Position numbers and translations under genes: made by a program
Assembly: GCA_023954175.1 (NCBI GenBank)
Contig: JAMLIM010000030.1
Coordinates: 1 to 40,574 of the forward strand
Reading direction: 5' to 3'
Source: Rhizobacter sp.
GTDB lineage: Bacteria; Pseudomonadota; Gammaproteobacteria; Burkholderiales; Burkholderiaceae_C
Length of the DNA: 40,574 bases
Shown here: positions 882 through 4,655 of the stretch, one piece after another
Layout of the letters: every line of letters starts with the position of its first letter
How positions within the stretch are numbered: position 1 is the first letter of the stretch
Notes under the pieces: generated by a model
Seen by the model: the letters and a program-made list of their open reading frames with translations, nothing else
Databases searched by the model: none
What the model was told of the DNA's origin: nothing

Positions 882-2795
882 TCATGCCGTTGCTCGAACG
901 GCCTTTTTCTTGCTTGCTGCCTTCGCGTCGCGGCAGGCGGCCCCGGCGTAGGTGCTCTGAAACAGGAACTTCTGCATGTCCCAGGCGCCCGTCGGGCAGC
1001 GCTCGGCGCACAGGCCGCAGTGCAGGCAGACGTCCTCGTCCTTGACCATCACGCGGCCGGTCTTCACCGGCTTAGAGACGTACAGGTCCTGCGTCAGGTT
1101 CAGGGCCGGTGCGCTCAGGCGCGTGCGGAGCTCGGCCTCCTCGCCATCGGCGGTGAAGGTGATGCAGTCCATCGGGCAGATGTCGACGCAGGCATCGCAC
1201 TCGATGCAGGCGGGCGCGGAGAACACCGTCTGCACGTCGCAGTTCAGGCAGCGCTCCGCCTCCTTGAACGCGGTCGCGGCGTCGAAGCCGAGTTCGACCT
1301 CGATCTTGATGCTCGCGAGCGCCGTCTCGGCCGCCGCCCACGGCACCTTGAAGCGCAGGTCGTTCGAGATGGCGTTGTCGTAGCTCCACTCGTGGATGCC
1401 CATCTTCTGCGACATCAGGTTCACGTGCGGCGCCGGGCGCGTGCGCACGTCCTCGCCGTGGAGGAAGCGGTCGATCGACACCGCCGCCTCGTGCCCGTGC
1501 GCCACCGCCGTGATGATGTTCTTCGGCCCGAACGCGGCGTCGCCGCCGAAGAACACGTCCGGGCGCGTGGACTGCAGCGTGGCCGGATCGAGCACCGGCA
1601 GGCCGTGGCGGTCGAAGTCGATGCCGCTGTCGCGCTCGATCCAGGGGAAGGCGTTCTCCTGGCCGACGGCCACCAGCACGTCGTCGCATTCGAAGAAAGC
1701 GTCGGGCTCGCCGGTCGGGACGAGCGAGCGCCGGCCGGCGTCGTCGTAGCGTGCCTGCACGATCTCGAAGCTCATGCCGACGAGCCGGCCGCCCTCGTGC
1801 ACGAAGGCCTTGGGCACGTGGAAGTTGATGATCGGGATGCCCTCGTGCTGCGCATCCTCCTTCTCCCACGGCGAGGCCTTCATCTCGTCGAAGCCGCTGC
1901 GCACGATGACCTTCACGTCGCGCGCGCCGAGGCGGCGCGCCGAGCGGCAGCAGTCCATCGCGGTGTTGCCGCCGCCGAGCACGATGACGCGCGCGCCGAT
2001 CGCCTCGATGTGGCCGAACGAGACCGACGCCAGCCAGTCGATGCCGATGTGGATGTTCGCACCCGCCTCCTCGCGGCCGGGCAGCGGCAGGTCGCGCCCG
2101 CGCGGTGCGCCACAGCCGACGAAGACCGCGTCCCACTTGCCGTCCGCGAGAAACGCCTTCATCGAATCGATGCGCTCGCCGCCGCGGAACTCGACACCCA
2201 TGTCGAGGATGTAGCCCGTCTCCTCGTCGATCACGGATTCGGGCAGGCGAAAGCGCGGGATCTGGCTGCGCATGAAGCCGCCCGCCTTCGCCTCCGCATC
2301 GAACACCGTCACCGCGTAGCCGAGCGGTGCCAGATCGCGCGCGACGGCAAGCGACGCCGGCCCGGCGCCGATGCAGGCAACGCGCTTGCCCTTGCGCGAT
2401 GACACCGCCGGCATGCGCGCGACCACATCGCCCTTGTGGTCGGCCGCGACGCGCTTGAGGCGGCAGATCGCGACCGGCTCCGGCAGACCCTTGCCCCCGA
2501 GGGCTTCACCCTGGCCCCCCGCGGGGGCGCTCCCGACTCGGGGCGGCCCATCGTCGGGACCACCACCCTCCTCCACCCGCGAACGCCGGCACGCCGGCTC
2601 GCACGGCCGGTCGCAGGTGCGCCCGAGGATGCCGGGAAACACGTTCGAGACCCAGTTCACCATGTAGGCGTCGGCGTAGCGGCCGGCGGCGATCAGGCGG
2701 ATGTACTCGGGGACCGGGGTGTGGGCCGGGCAGGCCCATTGGCAATCGACGACCTTGTGGAAATAGGCGGGATCGGCAATGTTCGTGGGTTGCAA
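882..2795 (-). CDS. GltD-like FAD/NAD(P) oxidoreductase with N- and C-terminal iron-sulfur domains
   Basis: A 637-residue protein related to the glutamate synthase small subunit. In order: an N-terminal Cys cluster (DCQWACPAH near residue 17, TCDRPCEPAC near 60); an FAD Rossmann motif (VACIGAGPASLAVARDL); an NAD(P) motif (VIVLGGGNTAMDCC); a second FAD contact (FFGGDAAFGPKNIIT); and a C-terminal two-cluster ferredoxin domain (CIECDACVDICPMDC, CLHCGLCAERCP). It probably moves electrons between the neighbouring 2-oxoacid oxidoreductase and NADP(H) or ferredoxin, by analogy with KorC-type subunits (inference). I chose the TTG start at 2795 because AGGAGA lies 5-6 bases upstream and the protein then begins MQPTNIADPAYFHKVVDC; the frame is open further up to 2897. 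Oddity: residues ~77-105 (GGGPDDGPPRVGS onwards) have no place in the family and correspond to a GC-rich repeat inserted in frame. Confidence 0.9.
   Translation of the reverse strand: MQPTNIADPAYFHKVVDCQWACPAHTPVPEYIRLIAAGRYADAYMVNWVSNVFPGILGRTCDRPCEPACRRSRVEEGGGPDDGPPRVGSAPAGGQGEALGGKGLPEPVAICRLKRVAADHKGDVVARMPAVSSRKGKRVACIGAGPASLAVARDLAPLGYAVTVFDAEAKAGGFMRSQIPRFRLPESVIDEETGYILDMGVEFRGGERIDSMKAFLADGKWDAVFVGCGAPRGRDLPLPGREEAGANIHIGIDWLASVSFGHIEAIGARVIVLGGGNTAMDCCRSARRLGARDVKVIVRSGFDEMKASPWEKEDAQHEGIPIINFHVPKAFVHEGGRLVGMSFEIVQARYDDAGRRSLVPTGEPDAFFECDDVLVAVGQENAFPWIERDSGIDFDRHGLPVLDPATLQSTRPDVFFGGDAAFGPKNIITAVAHGHEAAVSIDRFLHGEDVRTRPAPHVNLMSQKMGIHEWSYDNAISNDLRFKVPWAAAETALASIKIEVELGFDAATAFKEAERCLNCDVQTVFSAPACIECDACVDICPMDCITFTADGEEAELRTRLSAPALNLTQDLYVSKPVKTGRVMVKDEDVCLHCGLCAERCPTGAWDMQKFLFQSTYAGAACRDAKAASKKKAVRATA
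2481..2567 (-). repeat. GC-rich multi-hairpin repeat inserted in frame inside the GltD-like gene (copy A)
   Basis: Read on the minus strand: arms TCCCGAC/GTCGGGA (2553-2559 and 2531-2537) enclose the loop GGGCCGCCCC (2540-2549). A perfect palindrome CCCCCGCGGGGG (2516-2527) and a small AGGG/CCCT hairpin follow. The same order of hairpins and the same loop occur in the two copies at 4491-4655. The length, 87 bases, is divisible by three, so the reading frame survives and 29 residues are added between the CEPACRR and PVAICRLKR motifs. The limits are set by where family-like protein resumes and are approximate. Confidence 0.7.
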
Positions 2796-3033
2796 CGAAG
2801 TCTCCTGGGCCGTGCCATGCGGGCTCGCCGTCCACAGCGAACGGCCGCGCGCGCGCCTTGCGGCGCCCGCGAAGTCTAAGCGCAGCGCAATTCCCACGCT
2901 GCGCGCACCCCCGGTTTCAGGGGATGGCGCGGCGACCGGCTGGAAGCGGATGAATCCGCCACGGGTGCGGGAAGGTGCGCGCTCTAGAACGAGTCGTCAC
3001 AATGGGTGGATCAACCGAACCAGGGGGAACGCC

Positions 3034-4490: not shown

Positions 4491-4572
4491 ACCAACGAAG
4501 CGTCGGGCCGCCCCAAGCTTCATTGCTCCCCCTCGGGGGGCGGGCGCCGCAGCGCGGCGACCTTGGGGGTCG
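4491..4572 (+). repeat. GC-rich multi-hairpin repeat, tandem unit 1 (copy B)
   Basis: An 82-base unit starting 8 bases after the aldehyde dehydrogenase stop. It can fold as four successive hairpins: CAACGAAGC/GCTTCATTG (4493-4501, 4517-4525, one mismatch) around the loop GGGCCGCCCC; CCCCC-TC-GGGGG (4528-4539); CGCCGC-AGC-GCGGCG (4545-4559); and CGACC-TTGGG-GGTCG (4558-4572). It may act as a transcription terminator for one or both convergent genes, though no U-tract is seen. Confidence 0.85.
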
Positions 4573-4655
4573 ACCAACGAAGCGCCGGGCCGCCCCAAGC
4601 TTCGTTGCTCCCCCTCGGGGGGGCGGGCGCCGCGGAGCGGCGACCTTGGGGGTCG
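4573..4655 (+). repeat. GC-rich multi-hairpin repeat, tandem unit 2 (copy C)
   Basis: A near-exact direct copy of the preceding unit, one base longer. The first stem is perfect here: CAACGAAGC (4575-4583) pairs with GCTTCGTTG (4599-4607). The third hairpin keeps its stem (CGCCGC/GCGGCG, 4628-4642) but its loop is GGA instead of AGC. It ends 4 bases before the SDR stop codon. Confidence 0.85.

Follow-up and report, generated by a model that had tools for sequence, protein, structure and literature searches.

The window analysed here, a 40,574-nucleotide contig from a draft genome of Rhizobacter sp., carries a gene for a GltD/NfnB-like oxidoreductase and, in intergenic DNA, two tandem copies of a palindromic repeat (Table 1). 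The open frame of the gene extends to 2897, and the start adopted here is one reading of it. Profile searches (Pfam and NCBIfam) recognise in the protein an Fe-S domain at the N terminus, ferredoxin motifs at the C terminus and a domain for FAD/NAD(P), with matches to Pfam Fer4_20, Pyr_redox_2 and Fer4_7; the best NCBIfam profile is NF009410, at a score under its cut-off. From family labels and general knowledge we take the function to be that of a GltD/NfnB protein. Counting paralogues, 194 of 199 related genomes have a match to the protein. The frame runs through 638 residues without a stop, comparison with the homologue L101 over 629 codons gives a dN of 0.072 and a dS of 0.408 (dN/dS ~0.18), and an alignment of 40 homologues, the window protein among them, keeps 20 cysteine positions unchanged throughout.

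Table 1. Features of the window, and genes elsewhere that carry a copy of the repeat in frame (locations beginning with L are our handles for loci outside the window).
Feature	Location	Strand	Details
GltD/NfnB-like FAD and Fe-S oxidoreductase gene	885..2798	minus	638 aa as read
Extra linker stretch	2484..2567	minus	28 codons (residues 78-105) vs 5 in relatives, net +23; linker alignments
Repeat element core	2493..2560	minus	68 nt, 82% G+C; pattern match, copy alignment, arm pairing
Core stem 1	2554-2559 with 2531-2536	minus	encloses conserved GGGCCGCCCCGAG
Core hairpin 2	2514-2530	minus	GCGCCCCC-GC-GGGGGGC
Core hairpin 3	2500-2512	minus	AGGG-TGAAG-CCCT; core closes with CTCGGGGGC
Intergenic repeat copy 1	4491..4572	plus	tandem unit 82 bp, 76% G+C
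Intergenic repeat copy 2	4573..4655	plus	same repeat
RlmN	L188		repeat copy in frame
AceK	L192		repeat copy in frame
PutA	L197		repeat copy in frame
MurD	L201		repeat copy in frame
PdxR-like aminotransferase	L219		repeat copy in frame
AceE	L220		repeat copy in frame
HypD	L229		repeat copy in frame
5-FTHF cyclo-ligase	L240		repeat copy in frame
ABC ATPase	L245		repeat copy in frame
XdhA	L248		repeat copy in frame
phn_DUF6 membrane protein	L252		repeat copy in frame
UvrA	L254 (G001) and L100 (own genome)		repeat copies in frame
HerA-like helicase	L256		repeat copy in frame
ParE	L257		repeat copy in frame
Threonine synthase	L265		repeat copy in frame
2OG-Fe oxygenase	L181		repeat copy in frame
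NuoL	L258		repeat copy in frame
M20 peptidase	L097 (own genome)		repeat copy in frame

Between the motifs RRSRVEE and PEPVAICRLKR the window protein contains a 28-residue stretch (residues 78-105; 2484-2567, minus strand), GGGPDDGPPRVGSAPAGGQGEALGGKGL. Two genomes of the same genus have five residues between RVEE and PEPVAIC (SNGDK in G003 and SDAAK in G004), and G002, also of this genus, is likewise without the insert. Measured against G003 and G004, the window protein gains a net 23 residues (69 nt). The earlier note had counted 29 extra residues here: the in-frame stretch stands, but the count was too high because it included residues that replace the short linker. The alignment check that it proposed bears the insertion out, the residues being absent from most homologues. 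Among 80 loci from named genomes, of which 79 were readable, the linker is exactly short in 67 and long in 2, and in the nearest solved relative, NfnA (9n5u), there is no linker, CRRNLVEE running directly into EPLAIRQLKR. Some of the homologue searches used strict cut-offs, and genomes without a match in those were not scored as insert-free. Several loci have other linker lengths at this site, from +2 to +13 residues. The f47 genomes (L065-L069, L071-L074) share a conserved insertion of 10-13 residues (GNVE.RKP..) in this linker, a single family which by eye looks unrelated to the repeat.

The repeat is built of a variable stem around GGGCCGCCCC-RAG, a hairpin of the form (GC)CCCCC-NN-GGGGGG(C) and another hairpin whose sequence varies, and it closes with CTCGGGGG or CTTGGGGG. 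Alignment of the copies gives the DNA at 2493-2560 the same architecture as the repeats at 4491-4655, and a pattern for the family, which the intergenic repeats show at 4505 and 4587, finds four matches at three places in the window and none in 100 shuffles. The in-frame extra stretch in the GltD-like gene is thereby confirmed as a copy of the repeat, lying in sense orientation to the gene; in the shared architecture and in the orientation the earlier note was correct, and its idea of a repeat read into the protein is supported by the open in-frame copy. Folding energies were no better than those of shuffled sequences, either for the in-gene copy (z 0.20) or for three others (-0.29, 0.02 and -1.46), so the description of the element as palindromic rests on the pairing of its arms. 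Across 90 copies, the arms of stem 1 pair with their own partners at a mean of 6.46 as against 3.89 with the arms of other copies (largest mean over 200 reshuffles, 4.24); the mean is 6.36 for the 22 in-gene copies and 6.49 for the 68 others. In these 90 copies the arm sequence varies from copy to copy yet is complementary within each, and some process, such as template switching between the arms, is needed to explain this. The idea that the arms derive from the target was dropped, since in UvrA the whole element with both its arms lies inside the insert. Rfam gave no match at gathering scores across the whole window.

If the gene is translated as its open frame suggests, the repeat copy would be read as extra residues of the protein. 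In a structure model with a mean pLDDT of 64, the blocks containing the insert fall to 24-33. We regard the insert as no better than likely to be disordered because the low values take in all of residues 63-110, beyond the insert itself, and because the mean for the model is itself 64.

Searched with the exact pattern, the window's own genome gives ten places, and with the reversed pattern none; two of the ten, which lie at the ends of contigs C90 and C127, probably represent a single copy. A looser pattern adds seven copies, with zero in reversed-pattern controls, and none of these seven was accepted as in-gene, by eye rather than by profile. The pattern is present in 11 of 12 related genomes, where its reversed form gives no match, and in 11 of 12 of a second set (in which G791 is G066 again), and the repeat-bearing records include ones named Polaromonas, Rhodoferax and Variovorax. 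Similar DNA is found in ten plasmid-collection records, from Burkholderia, Paraburkholderia, Variovorax, Azoarcus, Rhodoferax and Acidovorax; a single Bordetella-labelled record, a MAG (L163), gave no match to the pattern. Tandem copies are spaced by 82 bp in the window, by 84 bp in G031 and G074, and by 78-87 bp among pairs.

Our reading of copies took in 88 more distinct ones, spread over 12 genomes (the window's own, G001, G003, G004, G009, G031, G066, G074, G095, G101, G361 and G786): eight belong to the own genome, and 80 come from the 137 places found in the others. In 30 of these copies (37 frames) at least one open frame had a GC3 above 0.72 on both sides of the element; most of the 30 were read by eye, 19 were scanned with Pfam and NCBIfam profiles, and the other 11 were judged to be intergenic or tandem. 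All 19 lie in frame inside recognisable genes, making at least 19 of 88 overall, a lower figure and not a genome rate, as the sample is an exact-pattern, incomplete and filtered one and the screen misses copies near gene ends or in genes of low GC3. For 18 of the 19, a profile spans the element or the family matches on both sides of it; the M20 peptidase copy is matched on its downstream side only. The own genome, in which the earlier note had also proposed a search for further in-gene copies, contributes the M20 peptidase copy and one of the UvrA copies. RlmN is 27 residues longer at the element than E. coli 3rf9 and AceE 28 longer than 1l8a (E. coli), in each case about one tandem unit. Together with three GltD-like copies, the in-gene copies number 22 and use all six frames (sense 8, 2 and 3; antisense 2, 4 and 3). 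This is in keeping with an element that is mostly open in all six frames (460 of 540 cases over 90 copies), and it speaks against selection favouring a single coding sense. We refer below to some of the host proteins as core enzymes, presumably correctly, on the strength of family labels and general knowledge.

The UvrA copy of the own genome (L100:1501-1536, contig C146) runs antisense to its gene and shares its site with the copy in G001. The spacing between fixed motifs is 68 residues with the element as opposed to 43 in L278, L279 and L281 (G003, G009 and G002, respectively), and because the own genome and G001 belong to one genus a single insertion suffices for the pair. Other genomes have unrelated longer UvrA linkers at the same spot. 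Unrelated length changes at both the UvrA and the GltD-like linkers suggest that the element sits where a change in length is tolerated.

The repeat is probably the Beta-proteobacterial Repeat Element (BRE), to which it was matched by description and not by letters. In the part of the BRE report available to us, these elements measure 75-91 bp in Bordetella, are GC-rich and tandem at some loci, and have Bordetella, Polaromonas, Rhodoferax, Acidovorax, Delftia and Azoarcus among their hosts (PMC3110155). Our repeat has an 82 bp tandem unit of 76% G+C (82% in the in-gene core), is tandem at some loci and occurs in Comamonadaceae and other betaproteobacteria, such that size, composition, arrangement and hosts all agree, compared by description; the net in-gene insertion here, of 69 nt, is slightly shorter. 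One sentence of the same report places some copies entirely within coding sequences, and the portion available does not describe their frames, host proteins or effects (PMC3110155). The earlier note knew of no repeat of this family inserted in a protein; in-gene copies are in fact not rare, and those of the family to which the repeat probably belongs are already in print. Among the open-licence papers listed in our literature searches we saw none that describes which proteins carry this family, in which frames or at which common sites, and among the matches listed in a literature search by the repeat's sequence letters none is about this repeat by title.

The in-frame insertion of the repeat is real and of a kind already known from Rickettsia palindromic elements (RPE) and tagged REPs. 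From the part of the source seen, RPE are palindromic repeats lying in frame in genes that likely encode functional proteins (PMC3733652). Our repeat is likened to them by mode of action, in-frame insertion in otherwise conserved proteins, and not by sequence, and its host group is different. Tagged REPs lie within genes in several species, including uvrA, which our repeat also hits, and a recB REP site is about common to two Xanthomonas species, again from the part of that source seen (PMC3733652). Our unit, at 70-85 bp, is longer than the 20-40 bp palindrome of the GTAG/CGTC REPs, and by its tags it does not qualify as one of them: GTAG was found in none of 90 left flanks and one of 90 tails, CGTC in 6 and 19, and GACG, the complement of CGTC, in 11 and 34, counted anywhere in the flank. 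Nor does it flank a RAYT (Y1) gene, as the GTAG type does, at any of the 12 Y1 loci examined, of 15 matches in related genomes; the Y1 transposase domain (PF01797) is present in 8 of 11 of these genomes and has no match in the own genome. A Y1/RAYT protein was rejected as the mobiliser on these grounds and because G004, G361 and G095 have copies of the repeat and no hit. The enterobacterial small mobile sequences RU-1/2/3 have also been found intragenically, according to the part of the report seen (PMC2759123); they are likened to our repeat by description, as small repeats in coding sequence, in different bacteria. The palindromes of PMC2755013, to judge from the part of the text available, are CRISPR and hence not this repeat.

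Our reading, to which we assign a probability of about 85%, is that a GC-rich palindromic repeat of ~70-85 bp was inserted into the Fe-S/FAD linker of the GltD-like protein and tolerated there, and that the same has happened in other genes. The repeat would have entered between the N-terminal Fe-S and FAD domains. Stop codons are scarce in every frame of the element and its net length here is a multiple of three, so the gene would have stayed open with a gain of about 23 residues, and because the site tolerates insertions, selection would have left the insert in place. The insert may then act as a flexible linker of about 23 residues, translated, neutral and disordered, in a protein that works. 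Insertions out of frame or in structured parts would disappear, and in-frame ones in tolerant loops would persist. The repeat itself is presumably non-autonomous and spreads by moving or by being copied.

The GltD-like linker carries the element in two further lineages, a Rhodoferax MAG (L102, the same gene as L006 of G031, around which the genus search covered a single genome) and a Rubrivivax MAG (L120). The earlier note had held that its reading would be refuted by distant genera with the same residues at this place and without the repeat's DNA structure; these two homologues have similar residues, and both carry the repeat's DNA. The three inserts are identical in length, in frame and in offset to both flanks, and differ in their residues. 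They look too alike for a free choice of site and frame, and one account is a single old insertion in a common ancestor, inherited and then lost in most lineages. Besides the shared length, frame and offset, it draws on the window element, whose nearest relative among 89 other copies is the Rhodoferax same-site copy (45; next 34.5), and on two candidate traces of loss. The linker of G009 reads GPDVG, a possible remnant, and a clade of Rhodoferax and G009 is not rejected (p-AU 0.42). G361 (L037) has a 23-residue insert of other sequence with a weak repeat trace at most, possibly a decayed copy; it matches the window insert at 38 of 78 positions, reached by 3 of 5000 codon shuffles, and the other two inserts at 35 and 38 of 78, reached by 36 and 11 of 5000, the shuffle means being 25-26 in all three comparisons. 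Against common inheritance, a quick tree (85 rows, linker removed) puts the three insert-bearing genes in separate clades, each with repeat-free sisters, requires at least three changes with G009 and G361 scored as lacking the insert, and rejects one clade for the three (p-AU 1.4e-97). Moreover, the Rhodoferax copy is closest to a copy in another G361 gene (48.5 as opposed to 45 for the window's), and for the Rubrivivax copy the other two linker copies rank only 34 and 7 of 89. We consider an old insertion unlikely on balance, though worth serious attention. Up to the insertion, the codons beside the window copy are like those of its own genus, which makes transfer of a long tract unlikely. 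More speculatively, and with rather low confidence, the repeat could be a mobile insert, readable in all frames, which returns to the same coding sites by site-recognising insertion without a known transposase, separate lineages having gained it at one position and in one frame of the GltD-like linker, and whose arms are rewritten in each copy yet stay complementary; if true, the repeat would be creating new loops in proteins throughout the order.

A quite different account would have the extra linker domesticated, with a function for which selection keeps it. We think this very improbable: the insert does lie in an open gene and is of equal length in three lineages, but its residues differ among the three, most relatives are without it, and the same repeat is found in unrelated proteins in every frame. 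The UvrA pair, too, varies more around the insert, where 24 of 37 residues (93 of 111 nt) are identical over the insert and near flanks, than over the whole match, with 89% of residues identical. An error of assembly or binning in a draft genome (148 contigs, 3.5% contamination, several other copies at contig ends) is a scarcely credible source of the stretch, given that the copy is in frame and internal to a 40.6 kb contig and that independent genomes have comparable copies inside genes, one of them in the PutA of G066, whose match coordinates are as in the named isolate Roseateles toxinivorans DSM 16998.

Tolerated insertion of the repeat extends protein-interrupting palindromic repeats from Rickettsia and the tagged REPs to a family of the Burkholderiales, with in-frame copies in the core enzymes AceE, MurD, ParE, RlmN and UvrA. 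It supplies a ready-made collection of tolerated insertions on which to test the origin of new peptide segments, and a caution for profile searches, as domains are split at these repeats. The threefold insertion at one site makes targeting and old inheritance directly testable against each other.

In G003, an identical matched string occurs at 8 of 14 places and a near one at three more, some of them in tandem, which suggests recent activity of the repeat as judged from the sequences; several of these places are at contig ends, where a single array may in some cases have been counted twice. The string of this subfamily (L182, L193 and L204) is also present in G004 (L206), and its copies are often at contig ends and in tandem. 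A partial match to the repeat lies beneath a gene annotated as a Fic family protein on a Rhodoferax antarcticus plasmid (NZ_CP019241.1:24219-24264) and is possibly a further in-gene copy.
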